Below, one piece after another: positions 1 to 15,158 of a stretch of 64,000 nucleotides of DNA. Positions within the stretch are counted from its first letter, which is position 1; every line of letters starts with the position of its first letter. The position numbers and the translations under genes were made by a program. The DNA lies in the NCBI GenBank assembly GCA_016124975.1, contig WGMP01000016.1:1-64000 (forward strand), in the 5' to 3' direction. Under the pieces are notes generated by a model. That model saw nothing but the letters and a program-made list of their open reading frames with translations, searched no databases and was not told where the DNA came from. The stretch is from Phycisphaera sp. GTDB taxonomy: Bacteria; Planctomycetota; Phycisphaerae; Phycisphaerales; SM1A02.

Positions 1-3134
<3,134 letters not shown>

Positions 3135-3291
3135 TGGAACGCGCACCTTAGAGCCAGCGGAACAGGGTCATGAGGGCCGCCTTCTTGTCGGACGATGATC
3201 GCCCCAAGAGCTTCGGCTCGCCGCCACTGTGCGGAGAAGTCCTCGGGCCATCGATTACCCACTCGGGCGGTGTGACTCTCTGCCTTTGTCA

Positions 3292-4281
3292 CTAGTCGGC
3301 CCCATAGAGTTTGGAGTTGCTATCGCAGTGCGTCGCTACACGCTCTAACCACTGCTCGTACCAGTACCAAGTGCTCGCCACCTGAACGCCGAAGCCCATG
3401 GACGGACTCTTGGCGTTCTCTTTCTTCCAGAGCAATGTATGGTGGTGCATGGTGAATCGCGGGAACCCGCGGTCATTCATTTGCTTTACGATTTGGGTCG
3501 GCAGATACTTGGGGCGCTCGGTCTCCCTGACCAACGCATACGCGGTATTGACTTGGCCCGCCAACTCGGAGTTTGACTTGACGAACTCAATCACCTCGTC
3601 TGCGTGTCCTTTCCGATTCGCGGTTTTGGCGACGAAGAGCACTCGATATGCGTAACGCTGATCATTGAACTCGCTCTCGGAGAGCTTCCCCTCAAATCCC
3701 TCGACAAATGCCTTGATGGGGGAGGGCAATGCACTGTCTGCCGGGATAGCTGCCGTTTGCTGCCGGGTTATTGACGAGAACTGAAGACTGAACGCCAAAT
3801 GCTTGTCGATCCCGAATCGCTCGCCAAACAGCTTCTTCGCATAGTGGTTGTAGTTTAGACAGCACGCTTGGAACTTCGCACTCAGCGATGCATCGAGCTG
3901 CGATGTCAGCTGATGTTCGATCTCATGCCGAATGCCAGCGAGAAACAGAAGATTGTTGACGGCTGCCGCGTCCACGGGGCATTGGGCGTACTGGAGGCAT
4001 TGCGTGAGATCCCAGTGTCTGTAGTTGCCTGATTTCGTCTTCTCGAACACTCGGGGTGGGCCGGCTCGCTTGAGGTAGCGATACTCAACGCGTTGCTTTC
4101 GATAGTGCGCCTGAAGCATGTACGTCCACGCGATGTGCATGAGAACGATGAATATCTCGGACTTGAATGTGATCAATGGACTATTGAAGATCTGGACGGC
4201 CGCGAGGGCGGCCTCGCGAGACTTGGTTAGCAATTCGCCCGAGACCGAGCGTGCTCGCCGAACTCTTCGTGGATTGCTCAT
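3292..4281 (-). CDS. DUF3644 protein inside the type I restriction operon
   Basis: A 329-residue protein matching the DUF3644 family as I remember it: the block around residues 17-60, with SREAALAAVQIFN, then LITFKSEIFIVL, then AWTYMLQAHYRK, is typical. The molecular function is unknown, though the family is often found with restriction-modification or other defence genes. The ATG at 4281 was chosen because GGGAG sits about nine bases upstream and all similarity begins there; a longer frame back to 4671 would overlap hsdS and is arginine/serine-rich noise. The gene sits 31 bases after hsdS and before hsdR, splitting the usual hsdS-hsdR adjacency. Codon use is less GC-rich than in the flanking hsd genes, which suggests a later insertion. 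No catalytic motif can be pointed to with confidence. Confidence 0.85.
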   Translation of the reverse strand: MSNPRRVRRARSVSGELLTKSREAALAAVQIFNSPLITFKSEIFIVLMHIAWTYMLQAHYRKQRVEYRYLKRAGPPRVFEKTKSGNYRHWDLTQCLQYAQCPVDAAAVNNLLFLAGIRHEIEHQLTSQLDASLSAKFQACCLNYNHYAKKLFGERFGIDKHLAFSLQFSSITRQQTAAIPADSALPSPIKAFVEGFEGKLSESEFNDQRYAYRVLFVAKTANRKGHADEVIEFVKSNSELAGQVNTAYALVRETERPKYLPTQIVKQMNDRGFPRFTMHHHTLLWKKENAKSPSMGFGVQVASTWYWYEQWLERVATHCDSNSKLYGAD

Positions 4282-4312
4282 TTGCGAAGACTCCCGAGAG
4301 CATCGGCTCCGC

Positions 4313-5597
4313 TCATGACGCCATCTCCTGCATCGATCCGAGCGAGGCGGGCACGCGAACTTCGCCGGCGATGAGCTTGGGGAGGAGGGTGTCACGAAGG
4401 GCCTGGAGTAGTCGGACCTCATGGATGGCACTTGCGATCCGCTCTGCCAAAGGCCGAATGATGGAGTCATGCGCCGACAGGACCGCCGATGGCGGAACGG
4501 CGACTGGATAAGCTGCCATGTCGCTCCAGTTTGTCCGTGGCATTCGCGTACCAGCCGATCGCTTGTCGGTGTAGGCGACGAAATCGTCGCTTGACGCCAA
4601 ACCAAGTACGGCGCTAAATGCAGCACGATTCTTCGGCTGAATGACAATGATGTCTGTTGAGCAGACACCATCGATCGGTGCTACGCCGACCTTGTGGAAG
4701 TACGGCCGGAGCTTACCGAAGAGAATGTCGCCCTTGGCGAACCTGGACTTGTTGCTCTCGATGGCGTCGCCCGATTCCCACTCCCAGAGCGAAATCGAGC
4801 GGCGCGGCATGTGCTCAAGACCGATGTATTTCGTCGCTGCATCGATCTGGTTAGCCGCGACTCCCTCCCGCCGCGCTTCGGCGATGCATCCGAAGTTGCT
4901 AGCCGTCCACCCCTCCGGGATCGGCCCGAGCTCGGAGTCGACGAGGCGGCTGGGGAAGAGGTCGGCGATCTCCTTCGGGAGGCCAGGGTCGCGGCTCTCC
5001 ATCTTGGCCCGCACGGGGTCGAAGTCGACGAACCACGACTTGAACAGCGCCCGCGCCATCTCCTCGAGCGTCTGGCACATGCGGCGGTTCAGGTCGATCT
5101 TGTCGTCGAGCGCGCCGAGGACGGAGGCGATGGCGCGTTGCTCGGGGAGGGGTGGGCAAGGAATTGGTAGCGCCTCGAGCAGCGGGATCCGTAGATTGCT
5201 CACGGTCGAACCCGTACCTTCGTTCACCCGAATCTCATGCTGCACTTCTTCAGACTGGATGGCGTACAACAGGAAGCGCGAGTGGCACTTTCTAGGATCG
5301 GCGCGAAGCATGACCATTCGCTGCCCAAGACAGCAGCGCAAGTCCTGCGGAACCATGCATACTTCGCCCATCGGAGCTTCGCGAGTGAGTATCAAATCTC
5401 CCGCTCGAAGTCTCGCTCTTCTGCTTCGCTGCTCGAAGTGTTGCTCGTCGGTATAGCTCGGTGTACTGAGGTCAAGCCTGCCGTTCCGGATGTTCTGATT
5501 CCGTATGACAATCACGCCCGCGTTTGTCCACACCGGCGTGGAATGCGGGCAGTCGGTGATCTGCTCGCAGAGGTCTGAGAGTCGCACCCGAGGCGGC

Positions 5598-5608
<11 letters not shown>
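4313..5608 (-). CDS. hsdS: Type I restriction enzyme, S (specificity) subunit
   Basis: DNA-recognition subunit of the type I complex, 431 residues, the usual length for a two-TRD HsdS. The first target-recognition domain spans about residues 1-150. The central conserved region follows, with [19 protein letters not shown] and the helix running into [18 protein letters not shown] then opens the second recognition domain (about 236-385), and a second helical region ([18 protein letters not shown]) closes the protein. The start overlaps the end of hsdM by 11 bases, implying translational coupling. The two recognition domains differ, so the target should be an asymmetric bipartite sequence, which cannot be read from the protein. 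The coding sequence appears intact. Confidence 0.96.
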
Positions 5609-7148
<1,540 letters not shown>

Positions 7149-7386
7149 TCGCATTCGCCTTGTGCGGTCTGGAGGCCTTCAGCCGGTCACGATCCGATCA
7201 GCCGAGCGCCTGAGCAGCGCATCCCGCTAGATTACTTTCTCGGGCGCAGGCCCGCACCGCCGCCCGACGCGGCGGGTGGGCTGGACGGCTGGTCGCGGCA
7301 GGGCAGTTTCGCGGTGTCGGGCACCGCTATCGCGGCGCCAAACGTCCCTTCTCGGATGCCGCGCACCGCGCCGCCAGCACCACGCC

Positions 7387-7851
7387 TTAGGCCCGCGCCT
7401 TGAGGCGTTCGCTCTCTGGCACCGCAGTCATGAGCTCTTGGAGGGATTTGATCGAGATTCGCCGCTGGCCATTGCTCTGCATCGGGCCGCAGCGAGACCA
7501 CGCCAGCTCGCCCGGGCCGTTGAACACTTCCGTGGCGCTTCCCTCTTTGCTCAAATGAAGAACGATGAGATGCTGCGGCGCTGCCCTCAGCGCAACGCGC
7601 TCGCCTTGCGTCATCTTGATCTCAACACGTCGGCCGTCCGCGGCAAAACCGTCGTGCGCCTCGGTAGAGGCCGTGCAGAGGGAGATGCCGTAGCGGTGCG
7701 CCGCGAGGACCTCAGCAATGCTGCGAACAAGATGGCCGTCCAGCGTGAACCGTCGTCTCGGGAACAGCACCTCGAACTCCGCCACCAGCGCGTACAGCCG
7801 GCGCACGAGTTCGGGGACTTGATCAACGGGAGCGAGCGGGGGCTGTCTCAT
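7387..7851 (-). CDS. DUF6998-type protein with a possible PD-(D/E)xK core
   Basis: A 154-residue protein resembling what I recall as DUF6998. The sequence has a helical N-terminus (VPELVRRLYALVAEFEVLFP), then TLDGHLVRSIAEVLAAHRYG, then HD (66-67) and VEIKMTQG with E77-x-K79. E47, D67 and E77-x-K79 together could form a restriction-endonuclease-like active site; that is inference from motif order, not a demonstrated activity. The C-terminal part (VFNGPG ... KMQSNGQ-like ... SLQELM) also fits the family. It lies 54 bases after the preceding predicted nuclease gene and is co-directional with the hsd genes, so a defence or accessory role is likely. Substrate and partners are unknown. Confidence 0.75.
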   Translation of the reverse strand: MRQPPLAPVDQVPELVRRLYALVAEFEVLFPRRRFTLDGHLVRSIAEVLAAHRYGISLCTASTEAHDGFAADGRRVEIKMTQGERVALRAAPQHLIVLHLSKEGSATEVFNGPGELAWSRCGPMQSNGQRRISIKSLQELMTAVPESERLKARA

Positions 7852-7905
7852 CGGGTATAGCGTTTGAGCTGGGCCTTGCCAGTGCGGATCGGCGCGAGCG
7901 AGGGG

Positions 7906-8565
7906 TTAGCTGGTACCTTGACCCTGCGCCTGCGGGCCGCCATTGAGTAAAAACACGGATCTCGCGTCAGCTTGTGCTCTTAGCCCTTCGAGACCTCCCG
8001 GATCAGCCGTCTTGATTGAGCGATCTCCGATGAAGCACTCAAAGTGCTGCCGGTAGAACTCGCTCATCGGGAGCGATGTCAGTTCATGGGGATTGCAGTC
8101 TCGAGCTGCGAGAACTTCGACCGCTGGCACCACGACGATGCCCTTTTGCTGCGAGTAGACGAAAGCGTATGAAGCTGGAGAGAACTTCAGCATGCGCTCG
8201 CACTGCTGCCTCAGCGCCTTGGAATCGGATCGCGAAAAGTTGTCGCTAGGTTCCAGCAGCTTCGATTGCGCCATGAACCCCTTGGCGACTTCAAATCCAG
8301 GGATCGACACACGAAAGACAGCCATGAAGTCGGCCCCGAACTTGGCTTCTTGGCTGCCTCGGCCACGATCCGTCAGGGTCTTTGCCGTCCAAGTGATACC
8401 ACCGATGTTCTGGTCGTTGAGCGTTTGCTCCATTACACCTAGGAGCCGATCGGTTACCGCAGGCTCCTGCTCGACTCGGCGGGCTGCGAGCGCTTCGAGA
8501 GTTTGCTTCTCGACGTTGCGGATCTTAGAGACGAGACCGGAGACCAACTTTGTGTTCGTGAACAT
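7906..8565 (-). CDS. Predicted Mrr-like (PD-(D/E)xK, QxK type) nuclease, function unknown
   Basis: A 219-residue protein with no family name I can give securely. Residues 77-102 hold GAD (D79), a short beta-like stretch, and Q100-S101-K102; D...QxK is the active-site order of Mrr-type nucleases. An acidic residue (E73) precedes the GAD. The N-terminus is helical and polar (KLVSGLVSKIRNVEKQ), and the C-terminus is a less conserved domain. No signal peptide or membrane segment is seen. It lies 39 bases after the two-helix membrane protein gene and 54 bases before the DUF6998 gene, so these are probably one transcript. GC content is visibly lower than in the backbone. Nuclease activity is an inference from the motif and the neighbourhood. 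Confidence 0.6.
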   Translation of the reverse strand: MFTNTKLVSGLVSKIRNVEKQTLEALAARRVEQEPAVTDRLLGVMEQTLNDQNIGGITWTAKTLTDRGRGSQEAKFGADFMAVFRVSIPGFEVAKGFMAQSKLLEPSDNFSRSDSKALRQQCERMLKFSPASYAFVYSQQKGIVVVPAVEVLAARDCNPHELTSLPMSEFYRQHFECFIGDRSIKTADPGGLEGLRAQADARSVFLLNGGPQAQGQGTS

Positions 8566-8604
8566 GGCGCGGGGCGAATGTGCGTGCAGCGAAAGCGAAA
8601 ACGG

Positions 8605-9114
8605 TCAGCGACCGGAGCCGCCCGCCACCGGCGCCTGGCCCGCCTGTGGCGAAGTCGGTTGGCGCCGGTTCGGTGGGCCGAGCGGTTCGACGCCTGCCTC
8701 GATAAATCTCTGCTCAATGACGTCCATGTGAGCAACGACATCCGCGCTCCTAAGGTGGGTGACCTTCCGTTTCTCAAATGCGAAGAAAATGCAAACAAAT
8801 CCGCAAAATCCGGTAACTGCGAAACATGCCCATGCGACTACTAGCCCGATGCCTGCCGTTTGAGCTGTGTCTTCTGAAGTTGGTGCGGAAGCCTGGACGC
8901 CACCAGAGAGGATAGTAATAAACGTTGAAAGAGCTGCGCCGACGCATGCGGACCCGACGGTATGGTAAAGGTCAACGGGATCGGAGATCTGCTTCACCTT
9001 ATCTTTCAAGTAAAGCCATTCCGAGCAAAGGATCGGGTAGGCCTTCCCAGGCGATGGCGCAACAACGTCATATCCCTGCGAAATCTGAAATGAGTCTCTT
9101 TGGGGTTCGCTCAT
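8605..9114 (-). CDS. Small protein with two transmembrane helices
   Basis: A 169-residue protein with two hydrophobic segments (about 52-72 and 88-113), a polar N-terminus and a proline/glutamine/glycine-rich C-terminal tail. No family is recognised. The ATG at 9114 is supported by a strong GGGAGG eight bases upstream, and it overlaps the stop of the zinc-ribbon gene as ATGA, so the two are translationally coupled. The stretch from 9207 to 9115 in the same frame is an unsupported extension. Being an inner-membrane protein coupled to a zinc ribbon and followed by a predicted nuclease, it may be the membrane component of a small defence cassette; this is inference from context only. Confidence 0.7.
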   Translation of the reverse strand: MSEPQRDSFQISQGYDVVAPSPGKAYPILCSEWLYLKDKVKQISDPVDLYHTVGSACVGAALSTFITILSGGVQASAPTSEDTAQTAGIGLVVAWACFAVTGFCGFVCIFFAFEKRKVTHLRSADVVAHMDVIEQRFIEAGVEPLGPPNRRQPTSPQAGQAPVAGGSGR

Positions 9115-9395
9115 TTCTGGCCTCCCTCTGTTGGCTGGGCAGGTGCCGCACTCACGACGCCCGCCTTGATCGCATTGATAAGGGCTGTGTAGCCGCAGTT
9201 CTCGCAAGTGACTGGGACGAGTGGGATGATCGCTCCACCACCTAGGACGAAGTTCCCGCCGTGAAACTGTCGCAACTCAAATGCGGCATCCTGCACCGAC
9301 CATCTGCGGTTGCCGCACAACGGACATGGTCGTCCTTGCCACTTTTCATTGAGAAACGATATAACCTTAGTAGCATCAATCTTTGGTGAATCCAT
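9111..9395 (-). CDS. Small zinc-ribbon protein
   Basis: A 94-residue protein with two CxxC pairs, C24/C27 (RPCPLCGN) and C64/C67 (VTCENCGY), spaced as in a zinc ribbon. The stretch between them is glycine- and proline-rich (FHGGNFVLGGGAIIPLVPV). Similar small proteins starting with FLNEKWQGRPCP occur in many bacteria, but I know no assigned role. The start is uncertain: an in-frame TTG at 9413 has GGAG a few bases upstream, while the ATG at 9395 has only a weak ribosome site. The stop overlaps the next start (ATGA). It is first in the leftward series, so a promoter is expected to the right of 9413. Confidence 0.75.
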   Translation of the reverse strand: MDSPKIDATKVISFLNEKWQGRPCPLCGNRRWSVQDAAFELRQFHGGNFVLGGGAIIPLVPVTCENCGYTALINAIKAGVVSAAPAQPTEGGQK

Positions 9396-9413
9396 AGCAG
9401 TGCTCTGGCGCAA

Positions 9414-11563: not shown

Positions 11564-12022
11564 TTACCCAGGCACCCCTGACCGCAGCCGGTAGAACATA
11601 TCCCAGAGCCGGTCAATCTCGCCTCGCTCGATGACCTCGATTGGCTTTGATCCGCCGAACGCTTCGTTCGGGGCGCGAAACCACTCGCCCAACGCGGATG
11701 GCTCGACCACTTCGCTGAGTGCGTCGCACAGGCGCTTCACTTCAACATAGTCTCGTTGGATGCGGCCGGCCTTCTTCTGTTCCGACTCGATCGTGGCGAT
11801 CGTGCGCACGGATACGTTGACCAGCCGCCCGAATGTCTCTCTCGGCATGCGCAGCATGTGACGCAGCTCAAGTTGCGGCGCGCCCTTGACAGCCACGAGG
11901 CGGACGCCGTGAAGCCCCCGAACCTCTGCGGAAGGCATCGGCGGCTTCTTGCCGACCTTGGTAACCCGACTTGTCCTCTTTGTCCTACTTGTCCTCGTTG
12001 TCCGCTGTGTCTTTGTCGCCAT
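11564..12022 (-). CDS. Xre/MbcA/ParS-type antitoxin of a RES toxin
   Basis: A 152-residue antitoxin. The central helix-turn-helix is at about 57-80 (MPRETFGRLVNVSVRTIATI). The C-terminal MbcA/ParS/Xre toxin-binding domain is at about 108-150 (ALGEWFRAPNEAFGG, EIDRLWDMF). The first 20 residues are an arginine/threonine-rich extension made by four 9-base repeats, giving R-T-x units. The ATG at 12022 has AAGGAG seven bases upstream, deciding it over 12073. It follows the RES gene on the same strand. Its HTH probably represses the pair; an inverted repeat at 12097-12116 is a candidate operator. Confidence 0.88.
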   Translation of the reverse strand: MATKTQRTTRTSRTKRTSRVTKVGKKPPMPSAEVRGLHGVRLVAVKGAPQLELRHMLRMPRETFGRLVNVSVRTIATIESEQKKAGRIQRDYVEVKRLCDALSEVVEPSALGEWFRAPNEAFGGSKPIEVIERGEIDRLWDMFYRLRSGVPG

Positions 12023-12096
12023 CTGGAGCTCCTTCCCGGCCGGGAGTGCGCGCACAAACAACCGTATCGTCATGTATGCAGCAAGGCAAGCAGGAA

Positions 12097-12116
12097 AGCA
12101 TGCAATTTTGCATGCT
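12097..12116. promoter_or_regulatory. Inverted repeat between RES toxin and antitoxin, possible operator
   Basis: AGCATGCAA and TTGCATGCT are perfect nine-base arms separated by two bases, lying just after the RES stop codon (12126) and 75 bases ahead of the antitoxin start. The position suits an operator bound by the antitoxin HTH, giving it a promoter separate from the toxin. No matching copy is seen ahead of the RES gene. Confidence 0.5.
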
Positions 12117-12125
12117 ACAGCGCGC

Positions 12126-12716
12126 CTACGCGGGGTGGCGCAGTAACTCGTCGGCCGCCATCACCCGAACTGCATGAGCGGTCCTGAGATTCGACGGAAA
12201 GGCGACCAGAATCTTCCCGGTCCGATTTCTCGCAGAAGGCGCCAGCAACGCCTCGAACCCAGCGGCAACGGCCCCTCGGCCAATCGCCTGTGTCCAGGAT
12301 TCCTCTCCGGCGGCTTGGATCGCGCGCCAATCCTCGGTCACGAGATCACTGATTGTGTATCCCAGAGCCCGGCGAATCCTGACTTGGGTCAAATCGAGCA
12401 CGCACTTGAGGTCGACCTTCAGCCCCACGAACACGCGAGGCCGAATCGTCGCTCCGGCGAATCCATACTCGAGAAACTCTTGATAGCTCTCCTTGACGGC
12501 GGTCACCGGATCGAGCGAAGCATAGATCGCACCCACCCCTCGTGGGTTCCATCTGCCGCCGTAACGCGCCGCGCCGTCGCCGGAGAGGAGGTCACTCTCG
12601 TGCGCATACTTGACCCCGGCCGAGCGGAATGCGGCGCAGTGAAGTTCGACCGCCCGAGGCTCGCAGGCTGCAATGCGACGAAAGAGGTCCTCCACAGCAT
12701 CGCGTTCTGTCGACAT
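12126..12716 (-). CDS. RES domain toxin (predicted NAD+-degrading)
   Basis: A 196-residue RES-family protein. Known members break down NAD+ and are neutralised by Xre/MbcA-type antitoxins. The signature at residues 51-76, RYGGRWNPRG then AIYASLDPVTAVKE, contains the conserved arginine and glutamate of the family. ATG at 12716 has GGAG six bases upstream. The toxin precedes its antitoxin by about 100 bases; in the described pairs I know of, the antitoxin gene usually comes first. The coding sequence looks complete, so the pair is probably functional. Confidence 0.9.
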   Translation of the reverse strand: MSTERDAVEDLFRRIAACEPRAVELHCAAFRSAGVKYAHESDLLSGDGAARYGGRWNPRGVGAIYASLDPVTAVKESYQEFLEYGFAGATIRPRVFVGLKVDLKCVLDLTQVRIRRALGYTISDLVTEDWRAIQAAGEESWTQAIGRGAVAAGFEALLAPSARNRTGKILVAFPSNLRTAHAVRVMAADELLRHPA

Positions 12717-12869
12717 GCTGTCTCCGCCCAAATCGAGACGTCCATCGTGTGGTTTCGACCATCGATCCCTTGCGCGAGACTATCGCATCGGCTGCGCGGA
12801 CTCTCGATCTTCGCGCCGGATTCGATGAGATTTTGGCGTCTGCCCGCGGCCTGGCCTGCGCGCCTCCGC

Positions 12870-14758: not shown

Positions 14759-15158
14759 GTGCGGCTGACGGTTTGGAGGTCTCTCACGGAGGCACGGAGG
14801 CACGGAGGTCAAGTCTTGTAGTTGCAGCGTGTCGCGCGAGGATGAGGAGAGAGGAGGAGAAGAGAAGTGGAGAGGAGAGGAGAGGAGAGGAGAGGAGAGG
14901 AGAGGAGAGGAGAGGAGAGGAGAGGAGGAAGTGATGGGATAGGGAGGTGGTATCTCTGCCCCGCCTCTTGTCTCCTTCGTTCCTTCCTGCCTTCCTGCCT
15001 TCCTTCGTTCCTTTCTTCCTTCATTTCTTCCTGCTCTCTTTCCTTTCTTCTTTCTCTCGTCCCTTCAAACTCCAACCTCACGCGCTCAACGCGCGCCTTC
15101 CCCTGTCCTCCGCGCCTCCGTGCCTCCGTGAGAGACCTTGACCCCCGTCAGCCGCACA
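14759..15158. repeat. Intergenic element with terminal inverted repeats of about 50 bp
   Basis: Between the zincin and pyrD genes. The left arm (14759-14808) and right arm (15107-15158) are nearly perfect inverted copies. The core 32 bases (14777-14808 against 15107-15138) differ at one position and contain the direct triplet of CACGGAGG units. The outer parts share GTGCGGCTGACGG. Inside lie a purine-only tract with a GGAGA-type microsatellite, then a long pyrimidine-rich tract (about 14957-15067), which could partly pair. Sequences like the arm (translating as SHGGTEAR) recur as spurious ORFs in many genomes, suggesting a dispersed repeat. No transposase is present. Confidence 0.75.
14871..14928. 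repeat. AGAGG pentanucleotide microsatellite
   Basis: Eleven consecutive AGAGG units from 14871 to 14925 with a partial unit after, embedded in about 100 bases of almost pure purine on the plus strand. It is non-coding and inside the inverted-repeat element. Copy number is likely to vary by slippage. Confidence 0.9.

Follow-up and report, generated by a model that had tools for sequence, protein, structure and literature searches.

A zinc-ribbon and two-transmembrane gene pair as a candidate anti-phage module in a defence island of Phycisphaera sp.

The two-transmembrane (2-TM) effectors of CBASS and Pycsar (PycTM, SLATT) occur in a two-gene layout resembling that of a gene pair found ahead of a type I restriction-modification (R-M) operon in Phycisphaera sp., in which a small cytoplasmic partner accompanies a small 2-TM protein, and the general plan of small partner and small 2-TM effector is already known from these systems. 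However, the pair has no nucleotide cyclase, its partner being a zinc ribbon or a DUF6864 protein, and no adjacent nucleotide cyclase or CD-NTase, by which Pycsar and CBASS are recognised, was found among the neighbouring genes in the window. The 2-TM family has no sequence match to PycTM or to any PADLOC 2TM effector, and its identification as PycTM/SLATT was rejected, as the proteins did not align and DUF4231 was matched, below threshold, in only 2 of 10 members. There is a fair chance that the pair forms a class separate from Pycsar and CBASS. Type II toxin-antitoxin and AbiE modules are likewise overlapping small genes carried on plasmids and in defence islands, but the pair matches no known toxin or antitoxin family, and one partner lies in the membrane. 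Lar restriction-alleviation proteins (PF14354, TIGR03655) are small CxxC...CxxC ribbons encoded near R-M genes, as is the ribbon described here, but the latter has a constant 2-TM partner, and its identification as Lar was rejected because both matches were below threshold (E 0.01 and 0.004; 16.5 bits against a cut-off of 28.6, and 17.4 bits against a cut-off of 39.6).

The window (the whole 64,000-nucleotide stretch of DNA analysed, from a 3.6-Mb draft genome) carries the locus on its minus strand. Four small genes precede the R-M operon: a zinc-ribbon gene (9111..9395, 94 aa, CPLC...CENC), encoding the proposed sensor or regulator; a 2-TM membrane protein gene (8605..9114, 169 aa), encoding the proposed effector; a nuclease-like gene of 219 aa (7906..8565); and a DUF6998 gene (7387..7851, 154 aa). 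The ribbon and 2-TM genes share an ATGA overlap, gaps of 39 and 54 bases flank the 219-aa gene, and 232 bases separate the DUF6998 gene from hsdM (5598..7154; N6_Mtase, 7.9e-106). The initial annotation had described four genes with this overlap and these gaps on the strand of the hsd genes, and the open reading frames confirm all of this, as well as the end of its span at 7387; the other end, 9413, belongs to an upstream TTG, and the zinc-ribbon ATG is at 9395. The adjoining operon has the order hsdR-DUF3644-hsdS-hsdM, with hsdS (4313..5608) assigned by a profile match and hsdR (3..3146) incomplete where it leaves the window. The DUF3644 open frame (3292..4671, E 1.4e-54) holds its domain at residues 146-328, so that translation may actually begin past the first ATG of the frame, closer to where hsdS ends. 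Between hsdS and hsdR (3292-4312, minus strand), the DUF3644 gene has a GC of 0.55 and a GC3 of 0.42, far from those of the flanking genes, and thus appears to be an insertion into the R-M operon. Only the DUF6998 protein among the four has a Pfam match above threshold, and an Rfam search returned no RNA element.

The zinc ribbon and the 2-TM protein are adjacent in 10 of 10 independent loci outside the window (L003, L025-L032 and L057), with spacing that ranges between an overlap of 8 bases and a gap of 9. Their hosts include Aquirufa and a Saprospiraceae bacterium (Bacteroidota), a Chlorobium (Chlorobi), Jezberella and Nitrosospira (Pseudomonadota), Bipolaricaulota, Caldiserica, another planctomycete and E. 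coli/Salmonella plasmids. Searched with the ribbon, a species-level genome collection yielded eight loci (L025-L032), and very small plasmids of Enterobacteriaceae were retrieved as well; on mobilisable 2.7-kb plasmids, such as the 2.68-kb E. coli/Salmonella plasmid L003, where it spans 1165-1853, the pair is the only visible cargo. The window ribbon is 45-57% identical to its 2-TM-partnered counterparts in other phyla (34% in Saprospiraceae). In alignments of 10 members for each family, the predicted zinc ribbon proved to have invariant cysteines (C24, C27, C64 and C67), and the 2-TM family has invariant W33, G54, G59, M130 and I133 with a nearly invariant S12-Q13; the window thus presents both hallmarks of the module, the four cysteines and a directly following 2-TM gene of this family (family A). 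The pair is rare and patchy, being found in 1 of 397 other Pseudomonadota and in 2 of 295 others in a Bacteroidota-centred sample (centre genomes aside). No pair was found in 50,697 phage records or in viral contigs, and a phage or viral origin was therefore rejected. No family in Pfam, NCBIfam or PADLOC covers the pair, and a literature search, which did not extend to subscription papers or preprints, returned no paper on DUF6998, DUF6864, the accessions of the plasmid proteins or a zinc ribbon paired with a 2TM protein in defence, so that a name may already exist.

In the model of the 2-TM protein (pTM 0.45), a beta hairpin at the N-terminus is followed by a short helix and then by two TM helices, of which the second continues into a long C-terminal helix. 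Compared with the PDB, it gave a best Foldseek E of 0.74, with no match below E 0.7, and rows for ExbB/TolQ and coiled coils were set aside as they look like generic helical hairpins. The Aquirufa protein (L025:6252-6857) carries an extra C-terminal DnaJ-like C11 domain (PF11875, E 2.2e-9), unlike the other members.

Both halves of the pair are exchanged. At L056, a family-A 2-TM gene follows a DUF6864 gene (PF21732, E 6e-32) with an overlap of 8 bases and no zinc ribbon, and in two further genomes (L080, L081) the DUF6864 gene shares 8 or 11 bases with a TM gene; no DUF6864 was found in plasmids or viral contigs. A second 2-TM family (family B) accompanies zinc ribbons on a Klebsiella plasmid (L004, divergent ribbon) and in a planctomycete (L018), and accompanies DUF6864 at L081, whose TM protein is homologous to that of L018 and to that of L004 (one pairwise comparison gave E 5e-16, exceeding locally shuffled sequence by 10 sd). 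All four combinations, zinc ribbon or DUF6864 with family A or family B, are therefore present, and divergent ribbons also precede unrelated 2-TM proteins (L011/L013, L024). Such swapping on both sides would resemble that of sensor-effector immune modules. In a separate case (L017:1033-2600), the gene overlapped by a divergent ribbon encodes not a 2-TM protein but one with a weak, sub-threshold SIR2 match (E 0.011).

Known defence genes lie within 6 kb of the pair in 5 of 9 chromosomal loci and in 0 of 11 control segments (locus-level Fisher p 0.008), the control being a small set of arbitrary 12-kb segments from four of the same genomes. These neighbours are brxA/B/C of BREX (L028), AbiLi/AbiLii with PDC-S51 (L025), AbiEi/AbiEii (L029), HsdS (L027) and, at L031, an actual Pycsar pair (PycTM and the PycC cyclase) with a type IIG enzyme. 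At E<=1e-20, PADLOC matched 52 families from 71 neighbours compared with 6 from 123 control proteins, and we read these six as housekeeping cross-matches. The other four of the nine loci (L026, L030, L032 and L057) have no recognised defence neighbour, with the pair beside argC at L030 and beside hydrogenase genes at L057. The window, left out of the Fisher test, is a sixth case in a defence context, with type I R-M genes on one side and a RES/Xre pair on the other, and the proposals of a 2-TM protein and of an R-M neighbourhood forming a defence island are both supported. The RES-domain toxin gene (PF08808, E 2.7e-23), with its Xre/MbcA/ParS-type antitoxin gene, occupies 11564-12731 (minus strand), and the island therefore reaches about 12.7 kb. 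Further along the window are an unusual fusion of a TPR domain to a bacterial Fe(2+)-trafficking domain (PF04362; 13615-14268, minus strand) and long intergenic GAGGA/TCCT simple-repeat tracts (14838-15054).

We propose, with about an even chance of being right, that the four genes represent three acquisitions, in which the ribbon and the 2-TM protein are the only conserved unit and form an anti-phage abortive-infection module of sensor and membrane effector. The ribbon would be a cytoplasmic sensor or regulator, made together with the 2-TM protein and restraining it. Upon infection, the 2-TM protein would oligomerise and then permeabilise or depolarise the inner membrane, and this damage would stop growth before phage release. 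Permeabilisation is read from the topology only, because the model combines its pTM of 0.45 with no PDB match. A broader proposition, which we hold somewhat more tentatively, is that the pair is one member of an undescribed, modular two-gene immune class with a swappable sensor, at least three unrelated 2-TM effector families and possibly a SIR2-like NADase (L017).

Small plasmids can keep such a pair for maintenance instead of defence, which counts against a defence reading. The pair may accordingly be a toxin-antitoxin or addiction module, with the 2-TM protein as membrane toxin and the ribbon as antitoxin, which maintains plasmids or islands and affects phages only secondarily. Overlapping small genes with the small soluble protein upstream would suit this explanation, as would the patchy distribution, the nearby AbiE genes and the status of the pair as sole visible cargo of the 2.7-kb mobilisable plasmids. 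However, DUF6864 and the ribbon interchange before one 2-TM family, which is commoner for sensors than for dedicated antitoxins, and we consider the addiction module unlikely, though a serious competitor of the abortive-infection module.

Superinfection exclusion or a membrane guard acting without cell death, by which the pair would block phage DNA entry or maintain membrane integrity, agrees with two small proteins of which one is in the membrane, and the unrelated 2-TM partner of the divergent ribbon at L024 has a sub-threshold SieB match (E 0.022). That match is weak and comes from an unrelated 2-TM family, however, and exclusion genes are usually prophage-borne, whereas the pair is absent from the phage records and viral contigs searched, which makes this explanation improbable. 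A house-keeping or stress-response pair unlinked to defence would account for the four loci in ordinary surroundings, such as those at argC and the hydrogenase genes, but it is more doubtful still, as the pair is very rare and patchy among related genomes and its neighbourhoods are rich in defence genes.

The genes between the pair and hsdM appear to be separate elements. The initial annotation had seen PD-(D/E)xK motif orders in both proteins; nearly all of the motif residues are invariant among relatives, and both are likely PD-(D/E)xK proteins. Fold prediction, proposed there as a check, models the 219-aa protein with an alpha-beta-beta-beta-alpha-beta core (pLDDT 69, pTM 0.70, moderate), in which E34 lies in a helix and D79 and Q100xK102, invariant in 7 relatives, lie on neighbouring strands, a combination of fold and motif that on this moderate-confidence model belongs to the PD-(D/E)xK superfamily. 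Among its structural matches are Hjc (Z 9.4, 2.6 Å), RecU (Z 8.7), SPARDA nucleases and R.SwaI, and by this model the protein is a putative PD-(D/E)xK nuclease of Hjc/RecU-like type. No sequence match above threshold was found to Pfam, NCBIfam, PHROGs or PDB families. The core, D79 and Q100xK102 are held in common with Hjc/RecU resolvases (Z 8.1-9.4, 2.5-3.4 Å) and Mrr-type QxK nucleases; unlike these, the 219-aa gene is solitary in defence contexts. The top structural row was human Rep15 (PDB 8a4a; Z 11.7, 13% identity), which was rejected as the identity of the protein and kept as a shared fold only; the match suggests that Rep15 may share the restriction-endonuclease fold. Relatives occur in 1 of 293 other genomes in the phylum sample (L002), on five plasmids and in three viral contigs. 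Outside the window the gene is solitary: it adjoins mcrBC at L048, has a DNA C5 methyltransferase gene nearby at L060 and lies in a prophage at L061. In the latter, the cargo of a P2-like prophage (L061:4115-6525) comprises a mad6/PD-T4-6-like protein kinase gene with a member of the 219-aa nuclease family after it in the same orientation, and the two may form a kinase-nuclease pair.

The DUF6998 assignment made from the letters holds at E 1.5e-45 (PF22522; 154.9 bits against a Pfam gathering score of 27). In this family, E47, D67 and K79 are invariant in 8 relatives and position 77 is E or Q (E77-I-K79 in the window), and by its sequence the protein is likely a PD-(D/E)xK protein. It resembles the catalytic stretch of Eco15I, a methyl-directed type II restriction enzyme (PDB 8q5m; profile match E 2.9e-5), but the match is limited to some 40 residues, the protein lacks any known recognition domain, and DUF6998 accompanies type I or type ISP R-M systems in an accessory role. 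PADLOC gave weak matches only (mREase_II, E 2.9e-5; PD-T4-6, E 0.008). Relatives are found on plasmids, in viral contigs and in a few genomes, one directly behind hsdR-hsdM-hsdS (L033) and another beside a type ISP enzyme (L043), and we consider DUF6998 a putative R-M accessory nuclease. On one viral contig (L063:5989-8176), the DUF6998 gene and a Lamassu-like LmuB/PDC-M68B gene converge.

Profiles of the four families were run against all fetched loci (10 for the pair, 9 for the 219-aa gene and 13 for DUF6998), and apart from the window none of them carries a second of the three parts. The four-gene order is therefore absent from all of these loci, which is the outcome that the initial annotation had itself set against its single unit. 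Base composition also splits the group, with a GC of 0.547 for the ribbon, 0.563 for the 2-TM and 0.568 for the 219-aa gene against 0.641 for DUF6998 and 0.638 for hsdM (500-base windows from 10 to 63.5 kb: 0.691, sd 0.028), as does a terminator-like hairpin with a T-run at the 2-TM stop codon (8602..8614, minus strand), although such hairpins, of which 5 were found against 2.7 +/- 1.4 expected, are consensus matches and not proof. One membrane-linked DNA-degrading system of four genes, which the common strand, short gaps, two nuclease-like proteins and membrane anchor had suggested, is thus highly improbable, given that no second locus holds even two of the three parts, that GC rises from 0.55-0.57 in the first three genes to 0.64 in DUF6998 and hsdM, and that a terminator-like site lies 3' of the 2-TM gene. 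The window is best explained as a defence island where three elements acquired independently stand in a row ahead of the type I R-M operon by chance, the actual unit being the first two genes only.

Collectively, these comparisons correct a plausible but wrong four-gene system. If the abortive-infection module is real, it would represent an unnamed sensor and membrane-effector module distributed from Planctomycetota to 2.7-kb E. coli plasmids, whose size permits testing in any phage laboratory, and it would provide functional leads for three domains, the zinc ribbon, DUF6864 and DUF6998.
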